From Syntrophomonadaceae bacterium (GTDB lineage Bacteria; Bacillota; Dethiobacteria; DTU022): 64,000 nt of DNA. The DNA lies in contig SKMK01000022.1 of NCBI GenBank assembly GCA_007121075.1, positions 1-64,000 of the forward strand, given 5' to 3'. A program made the position numbers and the translations under genes. The notes under the pieces were generated by a model. That model saw only the letters and a list, made by a program, of their open reading frames with translations. It was not told the origin of the DNA and did no database searches. Of this stretch, positions 4,832-16,640 are shown piece by piece (the stretch's first letter is position 1; the number at the start of each line of letters is the position of its first letter).

Positions 4832-6364
4832 TCAGGTGCTCTCTGCTTTAAGTTTAAAGGGGCCCATACCTATGAACCAGAACCCTCTTTTGGCTTTATC
4901 ATTTTCCGACACCAGCCGCCCGAAGCCATGCCGGCGCCCCAGAAACCAGTTTCCAGTAAACCGTTCCCCGACCAGCGGTTTATAAGTACCATACCCATGA
5001 GGATGACCTTTCCACCACCGTCCCCGGTAGGTGCTTCCCCCGGGCCAGGTCCGGATACCCCAGCCGTGGAACTTGCCGGCGGCAAATTCGCCCTCGTATG
5101 AACCTTTTCCATCCATCTCAAAGTAACCGCGTCCATGCATCAGGCCCAATTCCCAGCTGCCGCGCCATGTTGATCGATCAGGCTTTTCAAGGCATCCTTC
5201 ACCGTGATACAGCCCTTTTTTAAAAGATCCTTCGTAACAATCACCATTGGTACTACGGTACCGGCCGAATCCTTCCATTAAATCATCCTGCCAGGAACCT
5301 TTATATTCAGAGCCATCTTTCCAGGTCATGACTCCGTAACCGTGTTTTTTGCTATTCTTGAACTCGCCCTTGTAGGCCGATCCATCTTTATAGGCGACCT
5401 CGCCCCCGCCAGCGGGCCGGCCGCCGGCCAACTCTCCGCTATATAAGGATCCATCGGGGAAAAAAAAGGTCCCTTCGTCCAGGAGCGTGCCATGGTTAAA
5501 GGTTCCCACAAAACGAGACTGGTCCTGGAAATACAAAGTCCCTTTTCCATGGGGCCGGTTATTTTTACATTCCCCGACATATTTTGTTCCATCGGGCAAA
5601 ATACACCGGCCGGTTCCGGTGTTTCTACCATGTTCATAAGTGCCTTTAAACCGGGTCCCATCCGGCAACAGGGCGGAGCCGCTGCCGTGGGGCAAGCCTT
5701 CCTGTAACCTGCCTTTGTATTTAGCGCCGTCCGGGAAAAAGTAATGGCCTTTATCGGTAAACCGCCCCTGCTTAAAGGTGCCTGTGTATCTCGCCCCATC
5801 GGCAAAAGTATAGGTGCCCCGGCCGTGCATTCGGTTGCTTCTCCACTCGCCTTCATACCTGCGGCCGTCAGGCCAAACTTGAGTTCCTGTCCCCTCGCGG
5901 CGATCTTCAACCCACTGCCCTTTATAACTCTTGCCATTCGGCCATACCATCACGCCTTGACCGTGGCGATAGGCCTGCTTCCATTCACCGGTATATTTTT
6001 TTCCATCGGGCCAGGTAAAAGTGCCATGCCTTTCATATAAGCCGTCTACAAATTCGCCCTCATATTTTTCACCGCCGGGCCAGTAATAAGTACCCAGCCC
6101 GTGCATTTGATCATTTTTCCACTCTCCGATATATTTACGCCAGTCGGCAAACAGGTATGTGCCCCGGCCGTGCATCTTATCTTCTTTCCAGTGGCCTTCG
6201 TACTTATCGCCATTGGACCAAACAAAGGTACCCTCGCCGTGGAAACGCCCGTTTTTCCATTCGCCGCTATACCTGCTCCCGTCAGGCCAGGTAACCGTGC
6301 CCCGGCCATGCGGCTTATTATTTAATAATTCTCCCCGGTATTCTCCATTTCCGGCCAGTTTCAT
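4832..6364 (-). CDS. MORN-repeat protein (about 21 tandem repeats)
   Basis: Protein of 510 residues made almost wholly of 23-residue MORN repeats of the pattern xYxGEWKNGxxHGxGTxxWPDG. I count 21 full units plus a degenerate one near the C-terminus. The last 10 or so residues are non-repetitive. There is no signal peptide, membrane segment or enzymatic domain, so it should be cytoplasmic or peripheral. MORN repeats form an elongated beta-solenoid that can bind proteins or acidic lipids; no function can be assigned here. Repeats 9-14 are the most divergent. Start ATG is at 6364 with only a weak Shine-Dalgarno. The gene is monocistronic by position, with its own terminator. Confidence 0.93.
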   Translation of the reverse strand: MKLAGNGEYRGELLNNKPHGRGTVTWPDGSRYSGEWKNGRFHGEGTFVWSNGDKYEGHWKEDKMHGRGTYLFADWRKYIGEWKNDQMHGLGTYYWPGGEKYEGEFVDGLYERHGTFTWPDGKKYTGEWKQAYRHGQGVMVWPNGKSYKGQWVEDRREGTGTQVWPDGRRYEGEWRSNRMHGRGTYTFADGARYTGTFKQGRFTDKGHYFFPDGAKYKGRLQEGLPHGSGSALLPDGTRFKGTYEHGRNTGTGRCILPDGTKYVGECKNNRPHGKGTLYFQDQSRFVGTFNHGTLLDEGTFFFPDGSLYSGELAGGRPAGGGEVAYKDGSAYKGEFKNSKKHGYGVMTWKDGSEYKGSWQDDLMEGFGRYRSTNGDCYEGSFKKGLYHGEGCLEKPDRSTWRGSWELGLMHGRGYFEMDGKGSYEGEFAAGKFHGWGIRTWPGGSTYRGRWWKGHPHGYGTYKPLVGERFTGNWFLGRRHGFGRLVSENDKAKRGFWFIGMGPFKLKAEST

Positions 6365-6451: not shown

Positions 6452-7213
6452 TTAGCCGGCAGTCGCATCGGGCAAGTCCTGATCTTTCTTCTTGCGCCGA
6501 GACAGGTAAACCATGAATATCCCCAGCTCATACAATAACATCAGGGGAATGGCCATTAAGACCTGGGAAAATATATCGGGCGGAGTCAGTACCGAAGCAA
6601 AAATGATGATAATCAGCAGGGCAAACTTACGGTTTTTTCGTAAAAATGCAGTTGTCAGCAGACCTATACTGCCCAGAAACCAGAATAGCACCGGCATCTG
6701 AAATACCAGGCCAAAAGACAGCATAAAGGAAGTGGTAAAAGTTAAGTAACGGGCAATGCTGAAGCTTGGAACCAGGTCGGCTCCGGAAAAGCCCACAAAA
6801 AAATTCAAAGCAAAGGGAAGAACCACAAAATAGGCGAATGAAAGCCCCAGGGCAAAAAGGATATACATAACCAGGGTTAACAGCATAGCAGACCGTTTAG
6901 TCTTTCCGACGGCAGTTATGGCGATGGCCAGCAGCTGATAAAGAATCAAGGGCAGGGTTACAATTCCACTGGTAATAAATGCCAAACGCAGGTTGGCCAG
7001 GAGTGCTTCTGAGGGAGTCAAAAAGATAAGTTGAAGATCCAGGCCCTCTGCATCAAGGCCTGCATATGCCATATCGGCGGGCATCAATAAAATATGCCTG
7101 ATTTGATCACTAAAAGTAAAGCTGATAATGGCAAAAAGAAAAACTGTCCCCGCAATGATCATCAAGCGTACACGCAGCTCTTCAAAGAGACGAATTAACC
7201 TTTCTCTTTCCAT
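6452..7213 (-). CDS. tatC: Sec-independent protein translocase subunit TatC
   Basis: Protein of 253 residues with six predicted membrane spans and the TatC signature regions: an N-terminal EELRVRL segment, LTPSEALLANLRLAF in the first periplasmic loop and its flank, FGLVFQMPVLFWFL, and LTPPDIFSQVLMAIPLMLLYE. TatC is the receptor for twin-arginine signal peptides that exports folded, often cofactor-bearing proteins. No tatA is in the window, so the partner must be encoded elsewhere. It follows the upstream membrane-anchored gene by 33 bases and is probably co-transcribed. The nearest good Shine-Dalgarno is about 17 bases from the ATG, so the start is a little uncertain. Confidence 0.92.
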   Translation of the reverse strand: MERERLIRLFEELRVRLMIIAGTVFLFAIISFTFSDQIRHILLMPADMAYAGLDAEGLDLQLIFLTPSEALLANLRLAFITSGIVTLPLILYQLLAIAITAVGKTKRSAMLLTLVMYILFALGLSFAYFVVLPFALNFFVGFSGADLVPSFSIARYLTFTTSFMLSFGLVFQMPVLFWFLGSIGLLTTAFLRKNRKFALLIIIIFASVLTPPDIFSQVLMAIPLMLLYELGIFMVYLSRRKKKDQDLPDATAG

Positions 7214-7246
7214 AATAAAAGTATATTACGCTTCCTCTCCGGATAA

Positions 7247-8059
7247 TTATTCAAAGTAAATATCATCTTCGACGTCATCTTCGCTCTGAAGATAGCGCAA
7301 ATAGTTCTGGGCTTCTCTGTAAATCCAGCTGTCCCCTGTTTCATCTTCCAGGATATCCTCGAGCATTGATTTGGCCGTGGCCTGGTCACCCAGGTATTCA
7401 CCAAGTAAAAAAGTATAGTATAAGTGTTCTTCATTATCGGCCGTGCCTTCTGTTACCCTCGTTTCGAGATAATCAAAAAGCCATCCAATTTCTTCCTGCT
7501 GCAATTCTTCCCTATTACCGGTATCAAGCAAGGTAACAAAAGAAAGGTGGACCGCGGGATCGGGGTTTTCGCGGAGCAATTTCTGCAAAATGGTAATTTG
7601 ATCTGATATCAGGTCATCATCTTTCTCCAGTTCTTTATAAAAACCGATCAGCTCCAGCCGAAACCGGGGGTTCTCGGGTTCCATATCGGCCAGGGTTTCA
7701 TAGATGGACAGCAGCCTTTCCTGGTATTTTTCCACCGCTTCATGATCATTGAAGTACATTTGCTTGATCAGACTCAAATAGCGATAATTCTCAGCCAGCT
7801 CCTGGAGCACTGCAGGACTGGGATCATGTTCTTCCAGATGTTCTTCCAGGCGTTCTACTTCACCTTCATAGTAGTCCAGGTAATCTTCGGGCTCAGGATC
7901 AGCGTGCTCCTGGGGGATACCCGCGCCTTCTCCACCGAGGGTATGCCCGAGATACCCTCCTACTACGGATGCCACCATTCCAAAAGCCAGGACAGCAGCT
8001 ACGATAGCCGCCCAGCGTTGTCTTTTCAAGTCTTTTGGTCTTTCATTTTTCTTAGCCAA
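7247..8059 (-). CDS. Membrane-anchored helical (TPR-like) protein of unknown function
   Basis: Protein of 270 residues when started at TTG 8059, which has GGAGG eight bases upstream; the longer frame (start 8101) lacks such a signal. Residues 1-16 are basic, about 17-38 form one membrane span, and the rest is acidic and helical with spacing like degenerate tetratricopeptide repeats (LQELAENYRYLSLIKQMY; RFRLELIGFYKEL). The topology suggests an anchored extracytoplasmic helical scaffold. It sits just upstream of tatC with a 33-base gap. I do not recognise a named family; a role in export or envelope protein assembly is a guess from the neighbour. Confidence 0.7.
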   Translation of the reverse strand: MAKKNERPKDLKRQRWAAIVAAVLAFGMVASVVGGYLGHTLGGEGAGIPQEHADPEPEDYLDYYEGEVERLEEHLEEHDPSPAVLQELAENYRYLSLIKQMYFNDHEAVEKYQERLLSIYETLADMEPENPRFRLELIGFYKELEKDDDLISDQITILQKLLRENPDPAVHLSFVTLLDTGNREELQQEEIGWLFDYLETRVTEGTADNEEHLYYTFLLGEYLGDQATAKSMLEDILEDETGDSWIYREAQNYLRYLQSEDDVEDDIYFE

Positions 8060-8128
8060 AATAAAAACCTCCGGATCAATTTTACAGGTTCTATTAAACA
8101 TAGTTCAGGCAATTATTGGGATGCATGG

Positions 8129-8839
8129 CTATTCCAGTCTGACCAGCAATCGCCCGCAGTTTTCACAATACACCATCGAGCTCGGATTGTAAAGATGACC
8201 CCGTTGGGCTGAAGAAATAAACACCCGACAGCCTCCGCATATATCATCGACAACCCTGGCCAGGGCTTTGCCCTGGTATTTTTGAGCCAGGACCAAATAT
8301 TTTTCAAGGTATTTCTGATCAATCTTTTCTGCCAGTTCATCTCTTTGGGCCTGCAGCCTCTTAACTTCCCGGTTACATTGATCCAGCTCATCTGCAAGCT
8401 GCTTTTCCTTAATTGCAAGATCTTCCCTGGCCCGGCTAATTTTTTCCCCGAGCTCGCCCAGCTCTTCTTCCAGGGACTCGATTAGTTCCATTGAATTAAT
8501 AATTTTTTCTTCCAGTTGTTTCTTGTTATCAGCCAAATTGTCCAGCCGTCGCTGCATTTGTTCAAGCTCTTTAACATTGCTGACTTTGCCACCGTACATG
8601 TTGTCCTTTAACTCATTGCTGGTTTCAACAATAGATTGTTCTTCAAATTCCATCTGTTTTAACTCTTTACGAGCTGACTTAAGCAGGTTTTCTTTTTCAG
8701 CATAATCATTTTCCAGGTTTTTCAGGCCTTCTTTTGCCTCCTGTACCCCGCTCAGCCCGGGAGCTTCTTCAATTTTTAATTGTAGGCCTTTAATGGAAAG
8801 GTCAAGTTCCTGTAATTCCCAAAGCAGCTTCAATTGCAC
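8129..8839 (-). CDS. Coiled-coil zinc-ribbon protein (CT398/DUF164-like)
   Basis: Protein of 236 residues. About 170 residues of heptad-rich coiled coil are followed by a C-terminal four-cysteine zinc ribbon, with knuckles CGGC and CENC about 25 residues apart. This architecture matches the widespread CT398-type C4 zinc-ribbon family, which is often next to the Nif3-like gene, as here. Biochemical function is not established for the family. Start is GTG (8839), with GAGAGGAG upstream. A perfect hairpin (8865-8892) separates it from the Nif3-like gene, so the two genes may be only partly co-transcribed. Confidence 0.85.
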   Translation of the reverse strand: MQLKLLWELQELDLSIKGLQLKIEEAPGLSGVQEAKEGLKNLENDYAEKENLLKSARKELKQMEFEEQSIVETSNELKDNMYGGKVSNVKELEQMQRRLDNLADNKKQLEEKIINSMELIESLEEELGELGEKISRAREDLAIKEKQLADELDQCNREVKRLQAQRDELAEKIDQKYLEKYLVLAQKYQGKALARVVDDICGGCRVFISSAQRGHLYNPSSMVYCENCGRLLVRLE

Positions 8840-11026: not shown

Positions 11027-13069
11027 TTACTGCGGCCTGCCGGGGCCCTTCTTTCTTATCCTGTACAGGTAACATCCTCCCAGGGCCAGGGTCAGAAAAA
11101 ATACCAGCGGCCACATGATCAGCGGCATCGACCATACCGGGTTAATCCTGCCGGCAGTGACGGAATAATAGGGGTCGATTTCAGGCAGGCCCGAATCTCC
11201 CACCGAGTGATCGGCGGCATATTCCACCACAGCCTGCCATACTTTAAGTTCCTTATCATTGACATGAACGATCAGTTTCTCAATATCTTCAACTGCGACA
11301 GGGGTGCCGTCCCGGTCTTTTAAAACTACGTCCAGCCGGGGAATCATTTCGCCGACCATCGGCAGGAAAGAAGCGATATAGGCATCTGTAACCAGGCAGT
11401 ACAGTTCTTCGTCTCCTTTTTCAATCGGGACATAAGGACCTTCTCCCGGCACCTGCCGGCCTTTCCCCGTATATTTTTCGGCGTTGACAACTGCCCTGGC
11501 CGTGGGAACCGGGAGGTCTAAAAAAGGCACCGTGAACAAAACAGCGTTATGAGGGTTATAATCATAGCGCAATCCGGAAAACTGGAGGAAATATGTATTG
11601 CCCATTACTTCTTCCATCAAAACCGCTACCTCGAGGATGCGCCTTATTTCATCTCCCGTCAGGTAGGCGGCAACCAGGGGATACCCGGCATGACCATCTT
11701 CTCCCATCCCCAGCCCCACCAGTTCAACCAGATCGTAGAAAGATATTTTACCGTAAGAATGGGGCATGGCGCCCGGCATAATACTGCCCCTGATCACACC
11801 ATTGGCTTGAACGGCAAAATCAGGATCGTGGCCGGTTTTTTCAGCGGTCACCAGGCGCATCGCATCGGCTATAAAATTCCCCATAGGTGTTTCCTGCAGC
11901 GGGGGGTAATCCGGAAGTTTGAAATCGGAAAAAGCAACCGGATCCAGTATATGCTGGAAGCGCTCCTGCGTTTTTTCCTCAATATATTCGTTTAATAAGT
12001 CCGTATAAATCCCGATTGCTTCATCAGCGCCGGGGCGAAGAGGGATCGAGTGATCCAGTTTTTTTAGAAAAGGGGTTTGATCAGGATCGTTGCGGATGCT
12101 TACCGTACCGGAGGACAGGTCAAGGTTCAGTTCGAGATGCCCCACATACTCCAGGTGCGCGCCGGCCTGGACAATGATCGTATCATTTTCAATAACCGGT
12201 TTATCCAGGGCGGTGTGGCAGTGTCCGCCAACGATAACATCGATCCCTGCAACATCGGCAGCCAGGTCCCGATCTTCCTCCACCCCGGAATGGGTAAGAG
12301 CAATGATCAGGTCAGCTCCCTGCTGTTCAAGTGTTTCCACCATCCGGCTGGCCGCTTGATGTTGATCGGTGAATTCAACCGGCTCGTTGGCCGTGGTGAC
12401 TGCAGCGGCATCTTTGCCTATTAACCCAAACAATCCCACCTTCAGGCCGTTGTCAAGGGAGAGAAGGTGGTTTTCACGGTATAACTGGTCCCGGGCCAGG
12501 GGGTGATCGGGGGGCGGCAGGGTATTTGAAGCCAGGACTGCTGTTTCCTGGTGGGCTTCCGGATACCCGGCCTCTTTCAGGTATTCAGCTAAAACATCAG
12601 GACCGTAATCGTATTCATGGTTACCGATTACCACCGCATCATAACCAATCTTTTGTTTTATACTTAATTCAGGCGAATAACCCAGGGGAACCAGCCAGCT
12701 GTAGGCTGTCCCTCCTATAAAATCGCCGCCAGAAAACAATAATACTGGCTCTCCTGCAGCCTCTTTTTTCTGCCTGACCTCCTCAACAACTGTTGCCAGG
12801 CGGGCATATCCGCCAACAGCAGGGTTTTCCCTGTAGGGGTGAAAATCGACGGCCGGGGAATGGGGGATTAAGGCACCGTGTTCATCATTGGTGTAAAGGA
12901 TGGTCAGGTTTACCTTGTTCCCATGATCATGAAGATCTTGATTTGAAGCTCGAGCGCCGCTAGCAGGAATTAAAACAAATAAAATAGAGGTTAATATTAA
13001 GGAGAAAGCTAAAATAATTAATCGGTTCGAACCGGCTGTATACCCTGACACTAAAGCACCCCATCCCAT
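11027..13069 (-). CDS. Membrane-anchored 5'-nucleotidase/metallophosphoesterase (UshA-like)
   Basis: Protein of 680 residues. An N-terminal hydrophobic segment (about 17-40) serves as signal or anchor. The calcineurin-like phosphoesterase domain has the metal motifs TILYTNDEHGAL, GGDFIGG, IGNHEYDYG, THSGVEEDRD and VGGHCHTAL. A 5'-nucleotidase C-terminal domain follows at about 370-610, then a C-terminal membrane span with a basic tail. It probably hydrolyses nucleotides or related phosphoesters outside the membrane. C-terminal anchoring by a span with a positive tail resembles cell-surface nucleotidases, though no LPXTG is seen. An alternative GTG start at 13051 has a better-placed GGATGGGG; the ATG at 13069 is kept. 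Confidence 0.87.
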   Translation of the reverse strand: MGWGALVSGYTAGSNRLIILAFSLILTSILFVLIPASGARASNQDLHDHGNKVNLTILYTNDEHGALIPHSPAVDFHPYRENPAVGGYARLATVVEEVRQKKEAAGEPVLLFSGGDFIGGTAYSWLVPLGYSPELSIKQKIGYDAVVIGNHEYDYGPDVLAEYLKEAGYPEAHQETAVLASNTLPPPDHPLARDQLYRENHLLSLDNGLKVGLFGLIGKDAAAVTTANEPVEFTDQHQAASRMVETLEQQGADLIIALTHSGVEEDRDLAADVAGIDVIVGGHCHTALDKPVIENDTIIVQAGAHLEYVGHLELNLDLSSGTVSIRNDPDQTPFLKKLDHSIPLRPGADEAIGIYTDLLNEYIEEKTQERFQHILDPVAFSDFKLPDYPPLQETPMGNFIADAMRLVTAEKTGHDPDFAVQANGVIRGSIMPGAMPHSYGKISFYDLVELVGLGMGEDGHAGYPLVAAYLTGDEIRRILEVAVLMEEVMGNTYFLQFSGLRYDYNPHNAVLFTVPFLDLPVPTARAVVNAEKYTGKGRQVPGEGPYVPIEKGDEELYCLVTDAYIASFLPMVGEMIPRLDVVLKDRDGTPVAVEDIEKLIVHVNDKELKVWQAVVEYAADHSVGDSGLPEIDPYYSVTAGRINPVWSMPLIMWPLVFFLTLALGGCYLYRIRKKGPGRPQ

Positions 13070-13151
13070 ACCGATAAAACCGGACTTTTATAATCTAATC
13101 TTATCATATCCGGGCCCTCATTAGAATATTTCCGGGGAAATAAAACAGCTG

Positions 13152-13259
13152 ATAAAACCTGGCAGGCATGGAATAATGTTTATTGTATATATCAAATATT
13201 GATACAAGCAAATAATTTTCGGCCTTTTTTTAAGCTTCTAAGAGGTTGCCAGGTTTTAT
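13152..13259. repeat. 13-bp perfect inverted repeat enclosing about 80 bases
   Basis: ATAAAACCTGGCA (13152-13164) is exactly complementary to 13247-13259, with an AT-rich interior. The right arm runs into a T-rich stretch on the plus strand. No target-site duplication is visible. The 420-base gap 13070-13489 holds this element and the hairpin at 13366-13391; I see no gene in it. Confidence 0.5.
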
Positions 13260-13365
13260 TTTTTGTAGAGAACCGATTTGTCAAATGTAACTTGATTTTG
13301 CAAATATGATCACCTGTGCCGGGCAGCATGGCATGTTGATGGAATAACTCCAGGCGTAGGGAGCG

Positions 13366-13391
13366 AAAAACCAGCCGTACCGATGGGCTGC
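13366..13391 (-). terminator. Candidate terminator downstream of flaG
   Basis: On the minus strand CAGCC and GGCTG (13372-13376 with 13386-13390) form a short hairpin followed by G and five T residues (13366-13370). It lies about 100 bases past the flaG stop. A wider pairing of CCAGG with CCTGG around it may extend the structure. Confidence 0.4.
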
Positions 13392-13489
13392 ACCCCTGGT
13401 GTCAAGCGTAAATTTAAGTATTCCTATTTTATTAGCCGGGATTAAAAAAAGCTGAACATAGAGCCTGGCAGCCCCAGATTATAACAACC

Positions 13490-13873
13490 CTACCTTTTTT
13501 CATCCATTAGAATTCCATAAAGCCCCTGGATTCGATTTGCCACTTCAAGGGCCCGTTCAGTAGGTATTTCGTGGACTACTTCCTTGTTTCTAATATCAAC
13601 AACTTCTACCTGCCACAGCTTCGAATCTTTTTTAGCCCTGAATCGCAGTGTAGATCCGTTTTTTTCAGCATTGTCATTCAACTTGCTAATGGCTTTTTCC
13701 ACTTTTTCGTCATAACGGGTGTCTTTTCTATCAGTTTCATCGCTTTGAACGGAGCTTCTATCCCGGCTGACACGGGTATAGGTGGCACTGCTTTCTGGTT
13801 TCTGGATTTCTTTTAAATCAGGTTTTTCTTTAACTTTGTTAAGAAGCAAAGGATCGATGCCATCTATTTTCAT
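13490..13873 (-). CDS. flaG: FlaG-family flagellar protein
   Basis: Protein of 127 residues. The variable, polar N-terminal half is followed by the conserved FlaG core: LRFRAKKDSKLWQVEVVD, then NKEVVHEIPTERALEVANRI. FlaG is a small protein linked to filament length or cap function, usually encoded beside fliD. It lies 41 bases downstream of csrA, so the two are probably co-transcribed. No hook, filament or export genes are in the window, which makes this a detached pair from a flagellar locus. The family call is good; a role in motility is inferred. Confidence 0.8.
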   Translation of the reverse strand: MKIDGIDPLLLNKVKEKPDLKEIQKPESSATYTRVSRDRSSVQSDETDRKDTRYDEKVEKAISKLNDNAEKNGSTLRFRAKKDSKLWQVEVVDIRNKEVVHEIPTERALEVANRIQGLYGILMDEKR

Positions 13874-13914
13874 GGCTCCGAAACCACCTTTAAATACAAA
13901 TTGATTCCTGTCTT

Positions 13915-14211
13915 TTAACGGCCCTGCTCACCGCTTTTTTTTCTTTTACTTTCATTCAGCGCTTTGGCATTCTCCCGTCCGGAATCCGAAGACAAGATAT
14001 CGTTGATCCCACCCGTATATTTCGCCGCCGCTTCAATTGCACGCAGGTTTTCAGCACGGACTTCTTCAAAAGTTTCTTTACGGAGAATCTTAACGTCTTT
14101 TGGAGCTTTTATCCCAATGCGGACTGAATTCCTGTCTATTGACGAAACGATTATTTCTATATCATCGCCAATCATGATACTTTCCTGCGGTTTGCGGGTT
14201 AATACCAGCAT
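13915..14211 (-). CDS. csrA: Carbon storage regulator CsrA
   Basis: Protein of 98 residues beginning [20 protein letters not shown], the exact CsrA start. The ATG at 14211 has AAGGATG about nine bases upstream; the in-frame extension to 14355 is not CsrA-like. The core includes [17 protein letters not shown] and the RNA-binding end of the fold, EEVRAENL. CsrA dimers bind GGA motifs in mRNA leaders and, in Bacillota, restrain flagellin translation with FliW as antagonist; no fliW is seen here. The C-terminal tail of about 35 residues is longer than in most CsrA proteins and is basic and polar. Confidence 0.93.
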
Positions 14212-14509: not shown

Positions 14510-15328
14510 TTAAAAACACCTGCCGGCAATCCTGCTTAAACCGCACCTGCCGATTTGGCTTTTACTAAAAAGAAACATTAAACCGGAAACAATAAAAGAG
14601 AACCCTGTAAGCAGCAGATTTATATTACCACCTGTTCTGGGGACTGATTCACCTTCTTCCTCCAGATCTGCTATTACTTGCTCCTTATCCGGCTCCGGTT
14701 CCACCTCAGGTTCTTTGTCCTGTTCCGATTTTTTTTCTGAATTATTTTGTGAAACCAGCACTGGATCTGTTTCTCTTGTGATATCTTCAGGATCGGTTTT
14801 ATCCTGCTCACCTGCAACCTGCTCAACTTCATTGTTTTCCCGGTCTATAAATGGCCCTTCCATTTCCTTTTTCACGGCATCCTGTTTTTCAGATTCTTCC
14901 ACCGGTGAGGCAATCAACCCATCAGGCACATCATGTTCTCCAAAGCTGCCCCAGATCATATAACCCCCAGCAGATAAAAACAGCGCCGCCAGGACTGCCG
15001 CCACACCATAATCCACCAGTTTGCGATCAGTGCCGAATATTCCTCTACCACTCTTGCCGTAACTTCTCTGCAGATAAGCTTTGGCCGTACTTGAATCCGA
15101 CCAGAGGTATTCAAATTCATCAATTATCTCACCGCGGCCCAAATCTAAGGTTGAAGCATATCTGGTCAGGCTTTCGATAACAGCATTCTTGTCCCGGAAG
15201 CTCAAAACATCTTCCCTTTCGAGAGCTTCAGCCTGTTTTCTCTTCAGGCCGGACTTTTTGGCCGCCTCTTTAAGGGAAAACCCCATGGCCATCCTTTTGT
15301 GTCTTAATTTTTCTCCCAGAAAAGGCAT
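14510..15328 (-). CDS. RodZ-like membrane HTH protein with sortase-like C-terminus
   Basis: Protein of 272 residues. Residues 1-65 form an HTH_25/XRE-like helix-turn-helix (GFSLKEAAKKSGLKRKQAEA) as in RodZ. A membrane span lies at about 106-126, followed by a long acidic linker (130-228). The end has VPRTGG (229-234), about 18 hydrophobic residues and a basic tail, the layout of an LPXTG cell-wall sorting signal with V in the first position. RodZ couples MreB to wall synthesis; this protein could bridge cytoplasm and wall. The second hydrophobic stretch may instead be an ordinary span. It is divergent from the HU-FlhG fusion gene 148 bases away. Confidence 0.75.
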   Translation of the reverse strand: MPFLGEKLRHKRMAMGFSLKEAAKKSGLKRKQAEALEREDVLSFRDKNAVIESLTRYASTLDLGRGEIIDEFEYLWSDSSTAKAYLQRSYGKSGRGIFGTDRKLVDYGVAAVLAALFLSAGGYMIWGSFGEHDVPDGLIASPVEESEKQDAVKKEMEGPFIDRENNEVEQVAGEQDKTDPEDITRETDPVLVSQNNSEKKSEQDKEPEVEPEPDKEQVIADLEEEGESVPRTGGNINLLLTGFSFIVSGLMFLFSKSQIGRCGLSRIAGRCF

Positions 15329-15401
15329 ATTTTTATCACCTCAATAAAAATCTCTTATCTGTATATATCTTCGGCATTTGTGCTATTTTATTAACCGGTA
15401 T

Positions 15402-15476: not shown

Positions 15477-16640
15477 ATGACAAAAAAAGAGCTTGTGGCC
15501 AGCACAGCAGCAAAAGCCGGCATATCAAAAACAGCAGCAAAAAGGGTTGTCGATGCAACCACCACCATAATTTCTGAGCAACTTTACCAGGACAATAAAA
15601 TCACCCTGAAGGATTTTGGCACTTTCAGCCTGCGTCAAAGGCCACTGCGCCGGGTTAGGAATCCGCAAAATCAAAAAATGATCACCATTCCTTCCGCCAG
15701 GATCCCTGTATTTAAACCGGGCAAAAGATTAAAAGAAACGATTAAAAGCACAGGAGACAGGGGTGGATCAGCAATGACCGGGGGAAAAAACAAGGAGCCG
15801 GTGGCAAACCCAAAATCAAGGCCGCCAAAAGTCATTGCCGTAACCAGCGGCAAAGGTGGAACAGGCAAAACAAACTTTATCATTAATACAGCCATAGCCC
15901 TGGCTCAAAGGGGCCAAAAAATCTACCTGATTGACGCCGACCTGGGAACAGCCAACGTCGATGTCCTGCTGGGCCTAAATTGCAAGCATACCATTAACAG
16001 CCTTGTAGAAGACAAGAACATGGATTTGATGGATATAATTGTAGATGGTCCTGAAGGAATACGGCTACTTCCGGGAGGTTCGGGTTTGCAATCGCTTGCA
16101 GAACTGCCAAAAGAAGAGCTGACCAGGATTATCGGCATGTTCAAGCCTCTTGAAGAACATGCTGATGTGATCATGATCGATACGGGTTCAGGCATCTCGC
16201 GCAATGTGGTTGAGTTTGCATTGGCGGCAGATGAAATAGTTGTTGTAATTACACCTGAGCCTCATTCCCTTTCTGATGCCTATGCCATAATTAAAGTCCT
16301 GAGCAATAATGAGCTTCAACCTCCGATTAGACTTGTCTTCAACCTGGTAGAAAACATAACCGAAGCCAGGATGGTCTCATCCCGTTTAACTGACGTAACA
16401 GAACGGTTTCTGCAATTAACTCCCGAAACTATTGGCCATATTTTAAAAGATGATAACGTCGTTAAATCGGTTAAACAGCTCAGGCCATTCGTGCTTTACA
16501 ACCCCCTGGCCCCAGCCTCAAGGTGTGTTGTCTCCATTGCTGAAAAACTGATACCCTTGCCCGAAGGCGAAAAACCGGCAGCCAGGGAAGAAAAAAAAGG
16601 GTTCTTAGGCAAATTGAAAACGCTCTTTTCCAGCGCATAA
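15477..16640 (+). CDS. HU/IHF-like DNA-binding domain fused to FlhG/MinD-type ATPase
   Basis: Single uninterrupted frame of 387 residues. Residues 1-90 are an HU/IHF fold (TKKELVASTAAKAGISKTAA; LKDFGTFSLRQRPLRRVRNP), complete with the beta-arm region. A basic linker (91-117) leads to a ParA/MinD-family ATPase with deviant Walker A SGKGGTGKT (124-132), a DADLGTANVD motif, and IDTGSGIS; overall it is closest to FlhG/YlxH. FlhG sets flagellar number and placement. A possible internal start, ATG 15774, has GGGGTGG eight bases upstream and would give the ATPase alone. It is the only plus-strand gene nearby and lies next to csrA and flaG, which supports a motility link. Confidence 0.87.
   Translation: MTKKELVASTAAKAGISKTAAKRVVDATTTIISEQLYQDNKITLKDFGTFSLRQRPLRRVRNPQNQKMITIPSARIPVFKPGKRLKETIKSTGDRGGSAMTGGKNKEPVANPKSRPPKVIAVTSGKGGTGKTNFIINTAIALAQRGQKIYLIDADLGTANVDVLLGLNCKHTINSLVEDKNMDLMDIIVDGPEGIRLLPGGSGLQSLAELPKEELTRIIGMFKPLEEHADVIMIDTGSGISRNVVEFALAADEIVVVITPEPHSLSDAYAIIKVLSNNELQPPIRLVFNLVENITEARMVSSRLTDVTERFLQLTPETIGHILKDDNVVKSVKQLRPFVLYNPLAPASRCVVSIAEKLIPLPEGEKPAAREEKKGFLGKLKTLFSSA

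Follow-up and report, generated by a model that had tools for sequence, protein, structure and literature searches.

The window, by which we mean the whole 64,000-nucleotide stretch of DNA that was analyzed, contains a gene for a 387 amino acid protein that joins an HU/IHF domain to a MinD/FlhG-type ATPase (hereafter HU-ATPase), a divergent gene for a RodZ-like membrane protein, and the neighboring genes csrA and flaG. The features of the locus, with the evidence for each, are:

13490..13873, reverse strand: flaG (PF03646, 9e-18)
13915..14211, reverse strand: csrA (PF02599, 8e-24), with its start at the methionine of MLVLTRK
14510..15328, reverse strand: gene for a RodZ-like membrane protein of 272 amino acids (PF13413, HTH_25, 2.7e-6; alignment, hydropathy, co-occurrence)
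15368..15394, reverse strand: sigma-28-like box TTAA-N15-GCCGAAGA directed toward the RodZ-like gene (same layout in 6/6 family carriers)
15477..16640, forward strand: HU-ATPase fusion gene, 387 amino acids (open reading frame without internal stop; single-frame homologues in seven other genomes)
15477..15755, forward strand: HU/IHF domain, residues 1-93 (PF00216, 7e-26; pLDDT about 97; residue table)
15759..15818, forward strand: disordered, fast-evolving linker, residues about 95-114, with an internal ATG at 15774 (pLDDT; omega)
15819..16562, forward strand: MinD/FlhG-type deviant-Walker ATPase, residues 115-362 (motifs GKGGTGKT, DADLGTAN and IDTGSG; structural match)
16602..16634, forward strand: C-terminal helix, residues 376-386 (helix in the model with pLDDT about 60; conserved tail core)

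Elsewhere in the window, a 510 amino acid open reading frame (4832-6364, reverse strand) appears by eye to consist almost wholly of MORN-like repeats.

An HU fold and a FlhG/MinD-type ATPase in one frame had been suggested by the sequence-only reading, and Pfam domains, an AlphaFold2 model and homologous fusions in seven genomes bear this out. Pfam places Bac_DNA_binding (PF00216) on residues 1-89 of the fusion (7e-26, 90.7 bits against a cutoff of 22.4; positions 1-89 of the 90 in the profile) and matches families of the MinD/ParA type from residue 118 onward. MinD subfamilies of NCBIfam align over about residues 118-384, all with scores below their own cutoffs. Among sequences with solved structures, the ATPase is nearest to FleN (1e-54) and FlhG (5e-39), and the N-terminus to HU (4e-17). 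The AlphaFold2 model, made from a 41-row alignment, has a mean pLDDT of 89.9 and contains two confident domains, HU to about residue 93 and the ATPase from about residue 117 to 360. By part, pLDDT is about 97 for HU, below 50 for the linker (95-111), mostly above 90 for the ATPase, and about 60 for the helix at 376-386.

The best structural match of the ATPase is FleN (5j1j; Z 37.3, rmsd 1.6, 247 residues aligned), and FlhG (4rz3) aligns with Z 35.1 and rmsd 1.5 over 243 residues. The rows of this fold comparison span residues 115-361 of the fusion only, so the HU assignment rests on sequence and on viral HU models. The ATPase motifs are invariant across four aligned fusions; this alignment was used for motif invariance instead of a stricter Walker-motif pattern, which passed five of the eight fusions. 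At the C-terminus, the helix at 376-386 sits where MinD and FlhG carry a membrane-targeting sequence. A tail core, [FL]-x-x-KLK, is kept in 9/9 tails (eight of the HU type and that of a bare ATPase from the distant genome G174), and the helical moment of the tail is not above that of shuffled tails. As a separate observation, the alignment of a 456 amino acid phage "ParA" (BFVD A0A8S5RVM6) with the model covers 324 columns (rmsd 17.8), a longer span than the ATPase alone.

We found the one-frame fusion in six of the 43 genomes of the window's family, distributed over two genera (G000, the genome of the window, and the compared genomes G002, G010, G008, G064 and G065; other G numbers below are also compared genomes). 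Identity to the window protein is 80% in G002, 68% in G010, 64% in G064 and 63% in G065; the G008 protein is 78% identical in the ATPase and 55% in HU. The fusion is also encoded in a distant family, by G180 (52% identity) and G142 (51%), in both aligned over residues 1-384. These two carriers come from 398 genomes drawn evenly from the phylum, in which matches were listed at E 1e-60 or better and the four best candidates per genome were scored, a search that can miss fusions. No further fusion was found among the matches listed at E 1e-55 in the order (71 genomes) or the class (97 genomes), by a search that can also miss fusions. G174 encodes a close ATPase (58%) that lacks HU, and we saw no relative with HU and a fusion-type ATPase as two neighboring genes. 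A two-pattern peptide scan of genome contigs, which can miss fusions with other P-loop spellings, kept 80 loci that include at least one full fusion, L052; this is SKOR01000070.1 from a Syntrophomonadaceae MAG and is identical to the G064 contig.

A frameshift or misassembly, named beforehand as what would undo the fusion, was not seen: the same single frame occurs in seven other genomes, two of them in the distant family. For this reason an annotation or assembly artefact that joined two genes is already refuted, with a probability that we regard as negligible, and HU-ATPase is a genuine single protein. We did not find the fusion on plasmids, for which tblastn at E 1e-5 returned one record, outside the 15 matches listed, with one place covering at least 80% of the query and none at E 1e-8, or in phages, where none of 100 matching records covered the query to that extent. 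Two scans of viral contigs with HU queries returned 3 and 80 relatives of HU.

Both halves of the protein appear to be under selection. Between species, omega of HU is 0.08-0.21, which indicates constraint, with synonymous sites near saturation; omega of the ATPase is 0.03, a value from the one pair with unsaturated synonymous sites. The HU half thus evolves faster than the ATPase half, yet is constrained. The linker is loose, with omega of 0.62-0.82 in those three of the four pairs for which it was computable. The internal ATG at 15774, from which a second product (the ATPase alone) had been proposed, is present in the window, but the corresponding Met100 occurs in only one of the six family members and the other linker methionines lie elsewhere, so we do not retain the proposal.

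HU acts as a dimer and is largely sequence-non-specific. We take F47, F50 and F79 of the fusion to form the HU dimer core and R53, R55, R58, R61, K80, K83 and K86 to lie on the DNA side. The three phenylalanines are present in all eight fused copies. Arg or Lys is found at positions 53, 55, 58, 61, 80 and 86 in 8/8 copies and at position 83 in 7/8. At position 63, the arm tip, three copies (window, G180, G142) have Pro and the other five have Leu or Met, and the usual arm-tip TGE is found in none of the six family copies. DNA bending by the fused HU may be altered, given the Leu or Met at the arm tip in five of the six family copies. G000, G002, G008 and G010 keep a stand-alone HU besides the fused copy (the stand-alone HU of G047 was omitted from the residue table).

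In an HU tree, one group (99/94) contains all fused HUs of the window's family and also the HU belonging to another kind of fusion, from G001. The two carrier families are separate in this tree, and a single clade is not rejected (AU p 0.098). The G001 gene (L042, contig C69, 4465-5223, reverse strand) encodes HU (8e-25) and, after it, a hydrophobic part that resembles PgaD (E 0.024, a match below cutoff); the gene adjoins an apparent glycosyltransferase gene, and in the tree its HU falls with the fused copies of the same genus.

The ATPase half has a different set of relatives. In a 51-row ATPase tree (L053, L056 and L075 are absent, having no open reading frame that passed the motif filter), a single supported clade (100/99) comprises the eight HU-ATPases and the bare ATPase of G174. 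This clade nests among ATPases with an N-terminal PilZNR module (PilZNR-ATPases), with one PilZNR protein as its sister (100/97). The module scores above the Pfam cutoff in all 20 rows that carry this label. HU seems to have replaced a PilZNR module in front of the ATPase, judging from this branching. Canonical FlhG rows fall outside the HU-ATPase/PilZNR clade and do not themselves form one clade.

The ATPase type given by the sequence-only reading holds in part: the fold and motifs are of the MinD/FlhG type, and the protein is not FlhG itself. An N-terminal DQAxxLR enhancer helix is described as defining FlhG/FleN (PMC12826062). We found DQA before the P-loop in 17/17 canonical FlhG rows, in 0/8 HU-ATPases and in 0/20 PilZNR-ATPases. 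Five carriers (G002, G008, G010, G064 and G180) encode a separate DQA-type FlhG, and a gene of the FlhG type adjoins flhF in G002, G008, G010 and G180. In G000 no FlhG was found at E 1e-20, which agrees with the missing flagellar core cluster in this assembly. The fusion gene is not beside flhF in any of the stretches read around the eight fusions (3 kb only in G002). Based on the DQA counts, the separate FlhG of five carriers and the different clade, we reject orthology with FlhG. Identity with MinD was also rejected, as the fusion scores 112.9 bits against TIGR01968, which has a cutoff of 212.9. When the neighbors of the fusions were read, neither minC nor minE was recognized.

The RodZ-like gene, which the sequence-only reading did not mention, is head-to-head with all eight fusions and also with the unfused ATPase gene of G174; in the window, the divergent region between the two genes is 148 bp. 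Within the order (71 genomes), this protein occurs in the six carriers of the fusion, as a remnant in G004, and as one weak match in G047 that reads as an ordinary RodZ. HTH_25 is present in all six partners scanned. Between the helix-turn-helix and the transmembrane segment is a motif, WxDxxTAxxY, that occurs in 9/9 partners and in none of the three other hits of a profile built from the partners. The RodZ_C domain was found in 3/3 distant partners and in 0/3 family partners scanned, including that of the window. All six family partners have an acidic stretch, an LPxTG-like motif (for example VPRTGG, VPRTDG, LPRTSG or LPQTGG), and a second hydrophobic peak. In the window protein the order is HTH_25, WSDSSTAKAY, a hydrophobic peak at about residues 109-127, the acidic stretch, VPRTGG, and a peak at about residues 236-254. 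It may be noted in its own right that the six family partners have an LPxTG-like motif followed by a C-terminal hydrophobic stretch in proteins that have an internal hydrophobic peak as well. RodZ of B. subtilis is reported to bind MinJ and to give a strong two-hybrid interaction with MinD (PMC5778138), so the pairing of RodZ with a MinD-type protein has precedent.

A flagellar role had been suggested from the position of the gene next to csrA and flaG. Pfam identifies both neighbors (PF02599 and PF03646), and they lie beside the gene pair in 5/5 family carriers with enough contig (G000, G010, G008, G064 and G065; the G002 contig is too short to show this neighborhood). Neither gene was found within the 16-18 kb around the pair in G180, G142 and G174. 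The flaG of the window is a second copy in G000, the other being with the flagellins on contig C76. On that contig (L160), two open reading frames of 681 and 859 amino acids (6721-8766 and 11469-14048, reverse strand) encode large flagellins, with the second flaG between them.

The divergent region contains promoter-like boxes. In 6/6 family carriers, a TTAA-N15-GCCGA box is directed toward the RodZ-like gene; 4/6 also have one toward HU-ATPase, of the form T[TA]AA-N15-GCCGA (it is absent in the window and in G002). Of 2000 draws of shuffled intergenic regions, 0-8 hold a box of either kind, with a pattern that was widened and shaped after we had viewed scores against the sigma-28 consensus, which is TAAA-N15-GCCGATAA-like. 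The best scores against this consensus are no better than those of shuffles in the window and G002, for which 46% and 40% of shuffles are as good; the values are 1% for G010, 0% for G008, 9% for G064 and 8% for G065. As one match in the window alone is expected by chance (0.73), the case for the boxes rests on their conservation. Of the two flagellin genes in G000, one has the same layout and the other lacks it, as does csrA. There is no clear box of this kind in the divergent regions of G180, G142 and G174. Outside this locus, a PilZNR-ATPase gene in G002 (L038, contig C11, 307-1455, reverse strand) has a sigma-28-like box at 1492-1518, 37 bases upstream. PilZNR-ATPases may form a wider flagella-linked family.

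The fusion also co-occurs with flagellar genes. We found flhA in 12 of the 43 family genomes. With G000 set aside, the fusion is encoded in 5/12 genomes with flhA and in 0/30 without (Fisher p 9e-4; p 0.004 if G000 is counted as lacking flhA), a statistic that is inflated by shared ancestry and further weakened by gaps in the MAGs. Within the two genera, the counts are 3/4 against 0/7 and 2/2 against 0/5. G000 has two flagellins on C76 although flhA and rod genes were not found, and for this reason the assembly probably lacks its flagellar core cluster. The distant carrier G180 is flagellated (flhA, flhF, flhG and flagellin). Seven of the 12 family genomes with flhA lack the fusion, including G001, which is 95% complete, so the fusion is not needed for flagella.

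A decayed copy of the locus is found in G004, a close relative (MnmA 96% identical) in which no flhA was found and which is 71% complete. All that remains is residues 250-285 of the ATPase, in two frames, the final 32 residues of the RodZ-like partner and FlaG residues 62-126; the neighbors on both sides are intact. We found no CsrA match at the decayed locus. The remnant block of HU-ATPase, RodZ-like and flaG genes spans about 6292-6719 of contig C14 (L158). The evidence for a flagellar role extends beyond adjacency: the boxes in all six family carriers, the co-occurrence with flhA, the joint decay of the csrA/flaG locus in G004 and the csrA/flaG adjacency itself support a place for HU-ATPase in a flagellar regulon.

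From the computed results (the architecture, its conservation in two families, the ATPase motifs, the predicted fold, the constant partner, the sigma-28-like boxes of the family and the co-loss with flagellar genes), we propose that HU-ATPase is an ATP-switched tether from nucleoid to membrane that acts with the RodZ-like partner and is made with late flagellar genes. We put this at somewhat below even odds (roughly 45%). The DNA binding, membrane binding, partner contact and cargo that we infer would work together as follows. ATP would pair two ATPase domains, as in FlhG and MinD, and the dimer would then be anchored to the membrane by its two C-terminal helices. Nucleoid DNA would be gripped, with no strict choice of sequence, by the HU pair, which is carried on flexible linkers. 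The RodZ-like protein would be a dedicated partner that docks or stimulates the ATPase through its juxtamembrane WxDxxTAxxY segment, and it would set where and how long DNA is held before release. The protein would likely serve to position flagellar (or chemosensory) machinery with respect to the nucleoid, working alongside FlhF/FlhG and not replacing them, with the cargo being a guess. Noc of B. subtilis is reported to need DNA and membrane at once (PMC4331003), so bridging of the two by one protein can be functional.

Several other functions would use the same parts. ParA proteins bind DNA through their own surface, and HU could give DNA binding to a positioning ATPase that, like ParA, works on the nucleoid only; the tail would then be no anchor and the RodZ-like protein would be a membrane cargo or adaptor moved over the nucleoid. 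The intact HU, the unremarkable helical moment of the tail and the reported use of nucleoid DNA as a matrix by ParA-type ATPases (PMC10241942) agree with such a function. We consider it unlikely, as the ATPase is closest to FleN/FlhG and not to ParA, and the tail core is kept in 9/9 proteins at the position of the FlhG/MinD membrane-targeting sequence. That the closest solved structures are FleN, including FleN-FleQ complexes, and that flagellar-type boxes adjoin the gene pair would instead suit a FleN-like regulator, in which an ATPase that senses the state of the flagella would be delivered to promoters by its HU domain, with DNA at the membrane not being the point. The largely sequence-non-specific nature of HU and the membrane protein that is the constant neighbor make this regulator improbable in our judgment.

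The RodZ-like partner also brings cell division into consideration. In the manner of Noc or MinD, HU-ATPase could act at the division site or in nucleoid occlusion and, by way of RodZ/MreB, prevent septation or wall growth over the nucleoid in the motile phase. RodZ of B. subtilis is reported to be needed for septum positioning and to interact with Min proteins (PMC5778138), and Noc to act through DNA-membrane bridging (PMC4331003). The sigma-28-like boxes and the joint loss with csrA-flaG point to motility and not to constitutive division, so this function, too, seems improbable. Beyond the nucleoid-to-membrane tether that we prefer, a more speculative version, which we hold to be rather doubtful, would make HU-ATPase a MinD/ParA-type ATPase with two matrices, nucleoid DNA through HU and membrane through the tail. 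With a RodZ-like partner that is possibly wall-anchored (LPxTG-like motif), it would give an ATP-gated linkage of chromosome, membrane and wall at the time when flagella are made.

A dedicated DNA domain together with a tail at the membrane-targeting place would make HU-ATPase a natural test of whether one ATPase couples chromosome and envelope. The analysis also brings to light FlhG-like ATPases that form a family with exchanged N-terminal modules (PilZNR, HU or none), and the short candidate docking motif of the RodZ-like partner offers a way to study the possible placement of flagella with respect to the chromosome. We found no description of a fusion of HU with a FlhG/MinD-type ATPase in the open-licence literature, and an earlier mention is possible; a survey of HU superfamily fusions reportedly exists. 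As far as the literature was searched, novelty lies in how the parts, each of a known kind, are combined, in the constant partner and its private motif, and in the flagellar-type boxes. According to PMC10241942, the matrix of a positioning ATPase is either the nucleoid (ParA, McdA, ParC) or the membrane (MinD, FlhG).

HU-ATPase has in common with FlhG/FleN/YlxH the ATPase fold and motifs and a predicted C-terminal helix at the equivalent place, and those carriers that could be tested are flagellated. Unlike FlhG, it has HU in front, no DQA helix and a separate clade, and its gene was not beside flhF in the stretches read. PilZNR-ATPases (a YcgR N-domain with a FlhG-like ATPase) are the closest relatives in the tree and are likewise made of an N-terminal module of about 90-120 amino acids and an ATPase; they differ in that the module is PilZNR and not HU, and the profile found no RodZ-like partner in their fetched stretches. 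The HU half matches PF00216 over its whole length and keeps the dimer-core and most DNA-side residues of HU, whereas it is joined to an ATPase, evolves faster than the ATPase half and has an altered arm tip in the family. The partner resembles RodZ in having HTH_25 and a transmembrane segment, as well as RodZ_C in the distant three, and differs from it in the private WxDxxTAxxY motif and in the outer part of the family proteins, which is made of the acidic stretch, the LPxTG-like motif and the second hydrophobic peak. Noc of B. subtilis, as described in PMC4331003, binds specific sites, is related to ParB and has no relation to HU-ATPase; what the two would have in common is that one protein is proposed to bind DNA and membrane together.
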